DNA from: Parvularculaceae bacterium
Lineage (GTDB): Bacteria; Pseudomonadota; Alphaproteobacteria; Caulobacterales; Parvularculaceae
Length of the DNA: 64,000 bases
Direction: 5' to 3'
Assembly: GCA_028284065.1 (NCBI GenBank)
Contig: JANQSJ010000004.1
Coordinates: forward strand, 248,001-312,000
The notes beneath the pieces were generated by a model, which searched no databases, was not told the DNA's origin, and saw nothing but the letters and a program-made list of their open reading frames with translations. Position numbers and translations under genes: made by a program. Shown here one piece after another: positions 32,819 through 53,147 of the stretch; the stretch's first letter is position 1; each line of letters opens with the position of its first letter.

Positions 32819-33511
32819 TTACGCAGCTTTTTCCTCGGCGGGATCGCGCAGCACGTAGCCGCGACCCCATACGGTCTCGATATAGTGCTCGCCGCTTGTC
32901 GCCGCAGCGAGCTTCTTGCGCAGCTTGCAGATGAAAACGTCGATGATCTTGAGTTCCGGTTCGTCCATGCCGCCATAGAGATGATTCAGGAACATCTCCT
33001 TTGTCAGGGTCGTGCCCTTGCGAAGCGACAGAAGCTCGAGCATCTGATATTCCTTACCCGTCAGGTGGACGCGCTGGCCTGCGACCTCGACGGTCTTGGC
33101 GTCTAGATTGACGGTGAGCGAGCCAGTGGTGATGACTGACTGCGAATGCCCTTTGGAGCGGCGGACAATTGCGTGGATGCGGGCGACAAGTTCGTCCTTG
33201 TGGAACGGCTTTGTCATGTAGTCATCGGCGCCGAAGCCGAGTCCGCGAACTTTCGTTTCAATGTCGCCCTGGCCGGTAAGGATGAGGATGGGCGTATTCA
33301 CCTTCGACACGCGCAGTGATTTCAGCACGTCAAAGCCCGTCATGTCAGGCAGGTTAAGGTCAAGGAGGATAATATCGTAGTCGTAGACTTTGCCGAGATC
33401 GACGCCCTCTTCGCCGAGATCCGTCGTGTAAACGTTGAAGCCGTCAGACTTCAGCATAAGCTCGATGCTCTGGGCGGTCGCCCCGTCATCTTCAATCAGC
33501 AAAACCCGCAT
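32819..33511 (-). CDS. ctrA: Cell-cycle response regulator CtrA
   Basis: 230-residue OmpR-type response regulator, the master cell-cycle transcription factor of many alphaproteobacteria. The receiver opens MRVLLIEDD, with phospho-acceptor Asp51 in [11 protein letters not shown] and the switch Lys in [14 protein letters not shown]. The winged-helix domain contains [17 protein letters not shown] and the DNA-reading [15 protein letters not shown], nearly identical to Caulobacter CtrA. The protein ends EEKAA; a C-terminal Ala-Ala is required for ClpXP removal of CtrA at the G1-S step in Caulobacter. ATG 33511 has GGAGA upstream. It is transcribed away from mraZ. Two GANTC sites lie about 215-240 bases upstream of the start. 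Confidence 0.97.
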
Positions 33512-33723
33512 GGCCCTACGTCTCCCGGTTCGGCGCCAACGCGCTGCGGCGCGCGTGGGCATTCGAGCAATTCCCTTAAACAATGCTTAGGCTGATTTAC
33601 TTTCATAAAGGTTAACCGCGTTAAGGCGGATGAACGAAACGTCAGCGCGCTGATGTGAATGCGGAAACTTAGAAACGCCCCAGACAGGCATGCGCGACGT
33701 TCGGGTGGCGGTCTGCTGTTGCG

Positions 33724-33753
33724 GACTCCAACGCTTCGGACGCTAACTGATTC
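33724..33753. promoter_or_regulatory. Pair of GANTC (CcrM methylation) sites upstream of ctrA
   Basis: GACTC at 33724-33728 and GATTC at 33749-33753, 25 bases apart. In Caulobacter the ctrA P1 promoter carries a GANTC site whose hemimethylation after fork passage sets the timing of transcription. The sites are seen; their role here is inferred. Confidence 0.4.
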
Positions 33754-33854
33754 GAAACCATTACGCCTGAGCTTCCGGCCAGCAGTCGTTGCAGGTTCGA
33801 AAAAGGCGTTGAAACAGTCGCTTCACGCCGGTGGGATGGCGTTGGCGGGACCGT

Positions 33855-50019: not shown

Positions 50020-51297
50020 GTGAAACGCGGCAAAACGCGCAAGCATGGCGATCTCGTGGCGTCGATCGACATCGGCGGCTCAAAGGTCGCTTGCGCGATC
50101 GCATCGCTTGTTGAAGTCGCCGGCGGCGGCTTCGAGCCTGACATCGTTGGCATCGGCCAGCAGGGGCTCGCGCGCGGCGCCAGCGCGAACGATAGCGAAG
50201 AGGCGATGCGCAGTGCGATTCACGCCGCCGAGCGCATGGCGGGCGAAGCGATTTCATCGGCGGCGATGATCGCGCCCGGGCGATCAATCGCGTCGAAGCG
50301 GGTCGCCATCGACTTACCGATCGCCGGGGGGCTCGTCACGCTCGAGGACGTCGCCGAGTGTCTTGACGCCGTCGGGCTGATGGTCGACCGAGGTCGCGCG
50401 CTCGTCGCCGCTGACGTCGTGAGATTTCGCATGGATGGCGAGACTGATATCGCCGAGCCTATAGGGCGCGCAGGCGATCTGTTGACCCTCGAAGCGCTGG
50501 TGCTGAGCGCGAGAGACACGTCGGTTGTCAACATGGAGGCGGCTCTTCTTCGGGCGGGCGTCAAACTCGACTCGATTATACCGCGCCCGAAAGCGGCGTC
50601 GGCCGCGGTCCTTGTGGAAGACGAGATGGATCTGGGCGCGCTTGTCCTCGATCTCGGGGCCAAGTCTACCGATTTTGCTGTTTTCGAAAGCGGGGCGCTG
50701 GTCGCTTGCGGCGGCGTCGCTGTCGGGGCCGACAACATCACCCGCGATATCGCGCAGATATTCGGTGCGCCGCTGACGGAATGCGAACGGATCAAGACGC
50801 TGCAGGGTTGCGCGTTCTCGGGTCCGGAAGACGCCAATCGCCTCATCGACTTCACCCAGCTCGGCGCCCCGGGAGAGGTCGCGCGCCACTCGCGCGCGGA
50901 GCTTGCCGGGGTTATCGCGCCGCGCCTTGAAGAAATATTGGAGCTTACCCTGAATGCCGCTGCGCGCGCCGGCGCGAATGCAAGGGATGTGCGGCGCGTC
51001 ATTGTCACCGGCGGCGGCGCATTGCTGCTCGGCGTCATTGGGACCGTGGAGCGGATCGTCGGCGCGCGCGCTAGGCTAGGGCGGCCGGCGGACTTCGTAG
51101 CCGCGCCGGAGGCGGCCGCGGCGCCGCAGTTCGCGGCCGCGCTTGGCGCGCTCAAGCTTGTCGCCCGCAGTGCGGCGCGGCCCGACACAAGCAGCTTTGC
51201 CGGTCGAGACCATCCGCCTTCGGACGCACGTCGCGCCGTGGGTGGGGCGCGATCGCTCATGTCTGGCGTCGGATCGTGGCTAAGGGAGAATTTCTGA
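50020..51297 (+). CDS. ftsA: Cell-division actin-like protein FtsA
   Basis: 425-residue actin-fold ATPase that tethers FtsZ to the membrane. The phosphate-1 motif is ASIDIGGSKVACAI, the 1C-domain is present (residues about 85-165), LVLDLGAKSTDFAVFESG is phosphate-2, and VIVTGGGALLLGVI is the adenosine motif. The C-terminal amphipathic helix that binds the membrane is plausible in SLMSGVGSWLRENF. The start is GTG, with an 80-base gap after ftsQ. 317 bases separate it from ftsZ, so ftsZ can be separately controlled. Confidence 0.95.
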   Translation: MKRGKTRKHGDLVASIDIGGSKVACAIASLVEVAGGGFEPDIVGIGQQGLARGASANDSEEAMRSAIHAAERMAGEAISSAAMIAPGRSIASKRVAIDLPIAGGLVTLEDVAECLDAVGLMVDRGRALVAADVVRFRMDGETDIAEPIGRAGDLLTLEALVLSARDTSVVNMEAALLRAGVKLDSIIPRPKAASAAVLVEDEMDLGALVLDLGAKSTDFAVFESGALVACGGVAVGADNITRDIAQIFGAPLTECERIKTLQGCAFSGPEDANRLIDFTQLGAPGEVARHSRAELAGVIAPRLEEILELTLNAAARAGANARDVRRVIVTGGGALLLGVIGTVERIVGARARLGRPADFVAAPEAAAAPQFAAALGALKLVARSAARPDTSSFAGRDHPPSDARRAVGGARSLMSGVGSWLRENF

Positions 51298-51371: not shown

Positions 51372-51386
51372 GAATCCTATTGATTC
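51372..51386. promoter_or_regulatory. Two close GANTC (CcrM) sites upstream of ftsZ
   Basis: GAATC at 51372-51376 and GATTC at 51382-51386 are exactly 10 bases apart, one helical turn. GANTC is the CcrM methyltransferase target in alphaproteobacteria. Confidence 0.45.
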
Positions 51387-51440
51387 CGCGTGTCGCCCTC
51401 GGTGTTGATTTGGCCGGCGAACACATCTCATTTATCGCCG

Positions 51441-51455
51441 TTAAGGATTTGGTAA
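51441..51455. promoter_or_regulatory. CtrA-box-like site 1 upstream of ftsZ
   Basis: TTAA, seven bases, GTAA: one mismatch to the CtrA consensus TTAA-N7-TTAA. It lies about 160-175 bases before the ftsZ ATG, and its start is 21 bases from that of a second similar site. Confidence 0.45.
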
Positions 51456-51461
51456 GGGTTC

Positions 51462-51476
51462 TGAACGAACTTTTAA
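51462..51476. promoter_or_regulatory. CtrA-box-like site 2 upstream of ftsZ
   Basis: TGAA, seven bases, TTAA (continuing as TTAACC): one mismatch to the CtrA consensus. The 21-base spacing from site 1 is two helical turns, so both would face the same side of the DNA. Confidence 0.45.
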
Positions 51477-51614
51477 CCCTGTTCGAATGGCGGCGATGCT
51501 GTCTTTAGGCTCCGTGCGATGGGCGAAGTCGTCTGTCGCATTCAGCCTGAATGAACTGGCGGCGAACAAGACTCGAGCGGGCCAAGCAAAACCAGGCGTT
51601 AAGCGGAGCGACCA

Positions 51615-53147
51615 ATGCCACTAAACCTCAGCGTCCCGGAGCTGACCGAACTCAAGCCGCGCATCACCGTTTTCGGCGTCGGCGGCGCCGGCGGCAACGC
51701 GGTCAACAACATGATCGAGAGCTCGCTTGAAGGGGTTGAATTCGTCGTCGCAAATACCGACGCGCAGGCCCTCGGCCTTTCCAAGGCGACCAAGCGCATC
51801 CAGTTGGGCGAGGCGACGACGCAAGGGCTCGGCGCCGGGTCGCTTCCCGAGATCGGCGGGGCCGCGGCCGAGGAGTCCCTTGAAGAGATTGTGGAACAGA
51901 TCGGCAATTCCCACATGCTCTTCATCACCGCGGGCATGGGCGGCGGCACCGGCACTGGCGCCGCGCCCGTCATCGCGCGCGCAGCGAAAGAACGCGACGT
52001 TCTGACCGTCGGCGTCGTGACGAAGCCTTTTCATTTCGAAGGCGCGCGCCGGATGAAAATCGCCCAAGCGGGCATCGACGCGCTGCAGGAGCATGTGGAT
52101 ACCCTGCTGATCATTCCGAACCAGAACCTTTTCTCGATTGCGAACGAGCGCACCACGTTCCATGAGGCCTTTGCGCTCGCCGATCAGGTCCTTCATTCAG
52201 GCGTTCGGGGCATTACTGACTTGATGGTGATGCCGGGGCTCATAAATCTCGATTTCAATGATGTGCGCACCGTCATGAGCGAGATGGGCAAGGCGATGAT
52301 GGGCACCGGCGAGGCGGATGGCGAGAAGCGCGCCATTGAGGCCGCCGAGGCCGCGATCTCCAACCCGCTCCTTGACGAAGTTTCGATGAAGGGCGCCAAG
52401 GGCGTGCTCATCAATATCACTGGCTCCATGGATATGACCTTGTTCGAGGTTGACGAGGCGGCGAACCGGATTCGCGCCGAGGTCGATCCGGATGCGAACA
52501 TCATCGTGGGGTCAACGTTCAATCAGGATCTTGAAGGCCGGGTGCGCGTATCGGTCGTCGCCACCGGCATTGAGGCGGCGCAGCGAGAAAGCGGCGGGTA
52601 CCAGATGCGCGCCTCCTCGACGTCGACTGCATCTTCCATCTCGCGCCCCTGGCGATCCGAAGATCCCGTCGGCGAGGCGCCGGCTGCGGCGACGCCCCGC
52701 GAGGCGCCGCCTGCCGCTGCGCCGCCGCAACCGGCGCGCCAGCCCGCGCCGACTACGGCGCCCCCTGCTGCGGCGCACCCTGCTGCGGCGTCTGCGGCGC
52801 AGCCGGAACCGGCCAATCCGGTCGGCGACGTTCAGGCGCGTATTCGCCGTATGCTGATGGATGGCGCGCCGTCCGGCGCCCAGGGAAGCGGGGCGGCTCG
52901 CAATCCGTTTCGGGATGGTCAGCCCAGCGGTTCTGGCGCGAAGACAGGCCTTGGTGCGGCGATCAACAGATTGACCTCGCCGCTTGCCGGGCAAAAACCT
53001 GACGAGGGCGTCGAGGCCGGGACAGGCGCCGCAGCCGCTCCTGAGACCGCGGAATCGAAGCCGACGCCGCGCAGCGACCTATTTGACGATGATGTCGATG
53101 CGGAGCTTGAGATCCCGTCGTTCCTACGAAAGAAACGCGTCAGCTAG
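51615..53147 (+). CDS. ftsZ: Cell-division tubulin homologue FtsZ
   Basis: 510-residue GTPase that forms the Z-ring. [13 protein letters not shown] opens the nucleotide fold, the tubulin signature GGGTGTG is at residues 109-115, and [11 protein letters not shown] carries the T7 catalytic loop (NLDFND). The conserved core ends near residue 320. A linker of about 170 residues rich in Pro and Ala follows, long as in other alphaproteobacteria. The C-terminal peptide [11 protein letters not shown] is the FtsA-binding tail. An intrinsic terminator follows the gene. Confidence 0.97.

Follow-up and report, generated by a model that had tools for sequence, protein, structure and literature searches.

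A probable CtrA operator over the ftsZ promoter of Parvularculaceae, and an interleaved GANTC site missing from one genus

The region upstream of ftsZ in a Parvularculaceae bacterium quite likely holds an operator for CtrA, overlapping the ftsZ promoter, that in most of the family encloses a slot occupied by GANTC; this slot motif would have been lost in the bacterium's own genus, and a nearby pair of GANTC sites would be incidental. CtrA binding, repression, the position of the promoter and the loss of methylation control are elements that we infer from comparison of upstream sequences. An operator for CtrA over the ftsZ promoter is well supported by such inference, and its action would most likely be repressive. 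The stretch analyzed here, referred to as the window, comprises 64 kb of a 3.74-Mb genome in 19 contigs, and its features around ftsZ are as follows.

50020 to 51297, plus strand: ftsA (TIGR01174, 199 bits, above cut-off).
51372 to 51386, plus strand: the GANTC pair, at chance frequency, absent from the genomes G001 and G002, and probably incidental.
51441 to 51478, plus strand: the conserved 38-bp block, a putative CtrA operator, present without indel in 56/56 family ftsZ upstream regions.
51441 to 51444, 51452 to 51455, 51462 to 51465 and 51473 to 51476, plus strand: the half-sites of the block as read from the sequence, TTAA, GTAA, TGAA and TTAA, respectively.
51449 to 51454, plus strand: predicted -35-like element TTGGTA in the first box (block columns 8-13, moderately conserved).
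51467 to 51471, plus strand: the slot, GANTC in 36/56 family genomes by alignment of the 56 upstream regions, here GAACT, which is not a CcrM site.
51472 to 51477, plus strand: predicted -10-like element TTTAAC, overlapping the last half-site (columns 31-35 invariant, column 36 C in 50/56).
51615 to 53147, plus strand: ftsZ (TIGR00065, 405 bits, above cut-off).

The gap between ftsA and ftsZ spans 317 bp and contains three GANTCs (GAATC at 51372-51376, GATTC at 51382-51386 and GACTC at 51570) together with two CtrA boxes, TTAAGGATTTGGTAA at 51441-51455 and TGAACGAACTTTTAA at 51462-51476, which lie 21 bp apart and each carry 1 mismatch to TTAA-N7-TTAA. A preliminary description of this DNA had placed two GANTCs one turn apart and two one-mismatch CtrA boxes two turns apart in the gap, and all four sites were recovered at these coordinates, with spacings of 10 bp and 21 bp, respectively. 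It also held that two boxes in 317 bases are unlikely by chance, given an expectation of roughly one box per 30 kb. The computed expectation is close to that figure, at about 1 per 24 kb (the 64-kb window has 4 boxes of one mismatch or none, versus 2.66 expected from shuffles), and two boxes have a probability of about 0.0045 when the gap is modeled as a first-order Markov chain, in agreement with the earlier judgment. Across the genome, perfect CtrA boxes are in slight excess (21 versus 16 in a reversed control), and 13 of the 21 are intergenic by a crude ORF call that counts the box at ccrM as lying within an opposite-strand ORF. Because the perfect boxes stand just slightly above the reversed control, lone boxes elsewhere need context before they can be trusted.

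At ftsZ the boxes are conserved. The two one-mismatch boxes constitute a single 38-bp block whose half-sites start at 0, 11, 21 and 32 bp, for a phasing of 11, 10 and 11 bp. The sample comprised 62 family genomes, among which 57 had an FtsZ match and 56 were used; in the one left out (G064) the ftsZ start was not located, although TGAACGATTCTTTAA is present shortly upstream of its ftsZ, outside the 56-genome count. What the region contains is a pair of near variants of the CtrA box, TTAA-N7-TTAA, with phased half-sites kept in all 56 genomes. Nearly all flanking columns have a genus-weighted information of less than 0.6 bits, as against up to 2 bits inside the block. The outer half-sites are nearly fixed, with TTAA at the first in 55/56 genomes and at the fourth in 56/56. 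At the inner ones TTAA is rare: the second reads GTAA in 31 genomes, GAAA in 19, CTAA in 5 and TAAA in 1, and the third TGAA in 33, TGAC in 8 and other words in 15 (n = 56 for each). Many relatives extend the phase beyond the block, with TTAA at -11 (30/56) or GTAA/TTAA at +43 (25/56). Genome-wide, the block pattern has a single exact match, the ftsZ site itself. The boxes also reach beyond the family: in an order-level sample of 24 genomes, reduced to 23 tabulated by leaving out G046, whose ftsZ start was not located, 22 of the 23 genomes from other families carry, no farther than 420 bp from ftsZ, a box with one mismatch or none.

The distance from the start of the block to the ftsZ ATG ranges from 67 to 193 bp across the 56 family genomes. 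In two loci of genus g2 (L181 in G066 and L173 in G074) the block lies about 100 bp farther from the ftsZ start than in close relatives with the same block, a displacement that resembles a short insertion or duplication. Where the block lies 67-72 bp before the ATG, as in some relatives, transcription would start within or just after it, provided that the ribosome site is transcribed; this geometric argument is not directly applicable to the window's genus, in which the distance is 115-174 bp. The block itself offers promoter-like elements, a -35-like TTGG(T/A)A separated by a 17-bp spacer from the -10-like TTTAAC, and the slot forms the final five bases of that spacer. A sigma-70 consensus scan and a terminator scan returned no hits, TTGGTA and TTTAAC thus going unreported; TTTAAC departs from the usual -10 in having no A at the second position and no T at the sixth, and a consensus scan would miss it for this reason.

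The presence of a -35/-10-like pair at standard spacing raises the question of whether the block is kept mainly as a sigma-70 promoter (TTGGTA, 17 bp, TTTAAC), in which case the TTAA-like half-sites would be a by-product and bind little CtrA. The T in column 31, the G and A in columns 26-27 and the C in column 36 (50/56) are in fact conserved beyond the four TTAA-type half-sites. Yet the half-sites hold a 10-11 bp phase that continues at -11 or +43 in many genomes, boxes precede ftsZ in nearly all of the sampled genomes of other families in different surroundings, and TTTAAC would make a poor -10, all of which render this alternative unlikely. That a different regulator such as LexA owns the block is highly improbable. 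GTTC/GAAC words do occur in it, including a one-mismatch GTTC-N7-GTTC repeat at 51463-51477 on the minus strand, but one-mismatch LexA-type repeats occur at chance level in the window (47 versus 51.7 expected), and the conserved columns track the TTAA half-sites instead. A LexA operator in the block was accordingly rejected as a candidate, being a one-mismatch match of a kind that the window holds at chance level.

The preferred reading, a CtrA operator over the promoter, gains a second layer from the slot within the second CtrA box, between half-sites 3 and 4 and directly 5' of TTTAAC. Block position 26 is GANTC in 36/56 genomes, and every other position is GANTC in at most 4/56 (27 in 11,651 slots elsewhere). 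The middle base is free (GAATC in 22, GATTC in 12, GAGTC in 2), as expected of a CcrM site. By genus, the slot is GANTC in 0/3 genomes of g1 (the window's genus), 23/25 of g2, 1/10 of g3, 1/3 of g4, 1/1 of g5, 5/8 of g6 and 5/6 of g7; the coexistence of both states within g2, g3, g4, g6 and g7 points to several changes of state, provided that the genera are natural groups. In the window's genus the slot is mutated in all three genomes, to GAACT in the window and to GAAGT in G001 and G002, and most of the neighboring block is retained. Consequently, the window has no GANTC between its -35-like and -10-like elements, a position at which the 36 relatives have one by sequence if the promoter lies where we place it. 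Within the slot, the T position is associated with the C position (Fisher P = 0.0006, with phylogeny ignored). The G and A do not vary in any of the 56 genomes, those lacking GANTC included, so something other than methylation maintains these two bases. Among the 23 tabulated genomes of the order, 13 have a GANTC at a place from 17 bp before the box to inside it, a raw count taken without chance control. The interleaved element TNAANGANTCNTTAA has a match in 43/62 family genomes, frequently the ftsZ site; it is not supported as a broad regulon feature, since matches are few per genome and a reversed control gives about as many for some of the genomes. The window's own genome has one match, within an ORF by the ORF call.

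These patterns are compatible with a scheme in which the half-sites, being in phase, would place CtrA dimers along the same face of the helix, where they would cover the promoter and exclude RNA polymerase; it is because CtrA on the block would cover the promoter that repression is the expected outcome. Transcription of ftsZ would then take place while levels of active CtrA are low. For most of the family, the slot GANTC would be methylated by CcrM and read by GcrA, stimulating the same promoter. In the window's genus, which retains the operator and has no GANTC at the slot, control by CtrA would stay and the core promoter would probably no longer be under direct control by methylation. The proposal in the preliminary description that the layout joins replication-fork passage to Z-ring assembly therefore divides in two: such a link probably holds for ftsZ in much of the family, and it is probably weakened or lost in the window's genus, where the slot GANTC is mutated in 3/3 genomes. 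It is enticing to go further, although we would lean against it on balance, and to view the family's ftsZ promoter as a compact switch whose 38 bp are contested by CtrA on one side and methylation-dependent GcrA/RNA polymerase on the other; the window's genus would then be a knockout made by nature, with the methylation input gone, the CtrA input kept and Z-ring timing decoupled from replication-fork passage.

Control of ftsZ by CtrA and CcrM, and the tie between fork passage and ftsZ, are published for Caulobacter crescentus, as the accessible text of two papers records (PMC3708114, PMC3973325). There, ftsZ is controlled by CtrA and DnaA, and CcrM activates it by methylating a CGACTC motif, the CcrM-responsive GANTC lying between -35 and -10 (PMC3708114, accessible text). 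Likewise from accessible text, a set of promoters that turn on at 40-60 min is marked by GANTC between -35 and -10, the repressor motifs described for ctrA P1 and mipZ P2 are TTAA half-sites at -10 to -14, and ctrA P1 combines a GANTC at -28/-29 with a TTAA half-site at -14 (PMC4287350). The Parvularculaceae resemble C. crescentus ftsZ in their CtrA boxes, in encoding the same regulators and, for most of the family, in having one GANTC just 5' of a -10-like element. They differ from the Caulobacteraceae-like f3 loci, where GANTC lies 15-17 bp before the CtrA box (5/5), in that their GANTC is inside the second box (36/56) and gone in the window's genus. The arrangement also recalls ctrA P1 as described in those portions of its source, with a CtrA half-site near -10 that represses and a methylation site placed between -35 and -10, but here the distance between GANTC and half-site is shorter, several half-sites flank the GANTC, and the transcription start is a predicted one.

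Gain and loss of GANTC before ftsZ among related lineages has a precedent in the rewiring of GcrA/CcrM in Caulobacterales (PMC7987155, in the text available, whose comparison of 13 orders names Parvularculales); in contrast to the present analysis, GANTC was scored there irrespective of promoter position, and that text makes no mention of an interleaved layout. No description of this layout was found in the literature covered for the layout or for this family, most of it outside subscription journals and represented by partial text. By sequence, then, the CtrA part would be an operator that is conserved and of a familiar type, and the interleaved GANTC with its loss would be a variant not found described. 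A methylation site within a CtrA operator would allow the effect of methylation on CtrA binding to be tested, and the window's genus, together with those members of five other genera that lack the slot GANTC, supplies a test bed for whether ftsZ can do without control by methylation.

The retention of a GANTC within the CtrA box by most of the family, and its loss here, is a more interesting fact than the GANTC pair on which the preliminary description had built. Two GANTC pairs within 12 bp occur in the window versus 1.4 expected for random placement (P about 0.40), and genome-wide there are 7 pairs at exactly 10 bp versus 8 for a reversed control pattern. Neither site of the pair is present in G001 or G002, the two other genomes of the genus, so the promoter-region GANTCs at 51372/51382 are not conserved in close relatives; anchored on the block, GANTC at -69 and at -59 is found in 1/56 each and in none of the other 55 genomes. 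The two sites, which lie 55-69 bp 5' of the block, are most likely incidental, and they were rejected as a module component for their frequency and their lack of conservation: of the single module first proposed, the CtrA boxes exceed chance and are conserved, and the GANTC pair does neither. That the pair and the boxes nevertheless cooperate, with the pair having taken over from the lost slot GANTC as methylation sensor in this species, is quite unlikely. The window's genome (G000) is alone in its genus in having several GANTCs upstream of ftsZ, three of them in 420 bp, it encodes CcrM, and lineage turnover of sites before ftsZ is on record in the available text of PMC7987155; against this stand the chance frequency of the pair, its absence from G001 and G002, the GANTC-free state of its positions in the other 55 genomes, and the lack of a clear GANTC surplus elsewhere near ftsZ in genomes without the slot GANTC (11/20 versus 14/36 with it, over unequal lengths). 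G001 has zero GANTCs within 420 bp of ftsZ and carries a CcrM gene. Over the whole window, GANTC is about 3 times rarer than in dinucleotide shuffles (106 versus 334), a scarcity that fits a CcrM-bearing genome.

The regulators needed for CtrA and methylation control are encoded in the genome, and the presumed binder and a box before it lie in the window.

32825 to 33511, minus strand: ctrA, the presumed binder (NF045991, 425 bits, above cut-off).
33576 to 33590, minus strand: one-mismatch CtrA box, 64 bp upstream of the ctrA start and one of the window's four boxes.

The CtrA protein is 82% identical to that of C. crescentus, and the box before its gene is supporting evidence for ctrA autoregulation. 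CcrM scores 607 bits with NF050803, under the cut-off of 830, yet is full length with this as its best model; GcrA scores 183 bits with NF050816, under the cut-off of 280, and is above cut-off with PF07750. A CcrM gene is present in 3/3 genomes of the genus and a GcrA gene in G000 and G001; no GcrA gene turned up in G002, a genome of 66% completeness. Perfect CtrA boxes lie 104 bp upstream of the longest start of the ccrM ORF, 43 bp upstream of the start of a FliO-like flagellar gene and 23 bp upstream of the longest start of mipZ, whose true start may be somewhat further from the box because the MipZ domain starts at residue 25. The CtrA half of the preliminary description thus finds support both in the block, shared by 56/56 family ftsZ upstream regions, and in the boxes before ctrA, ccrM and mipZ.

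Several further observations concern these upstream regions. The perfect box at mipZ (about 938-952 of L233, contig C2 of G000) lies between that gene and a divergent one with a weak, below-cut-off PapD_N match, and a GANTC lies about 60 bp beyond it, away from mipZ. Upstream of ctrA, the interval 33512-33800 contains two GANTCs 25 bp apart (33724 and 33749), one of them followed by AGTTAGC, as well as a GGTTAACC and the one-mismatch box at 33576-33590, a layout reminiscent of the two-promoter ctrA of C. crescentus. The sole exact LexA-type repeat of the window (GTTC-N7-GTTC) is at 51553-51567 on the minus strand, 47 bp upstream of the ftsZ start, and is absent from the aligned G001 sequence. 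Finally, at 51403-51423, about 20-40 bp upstream of the block, TTGATTT and GCGAAC(A) stand at a fixed spacing that is common to 3/3 genomes of the genus.
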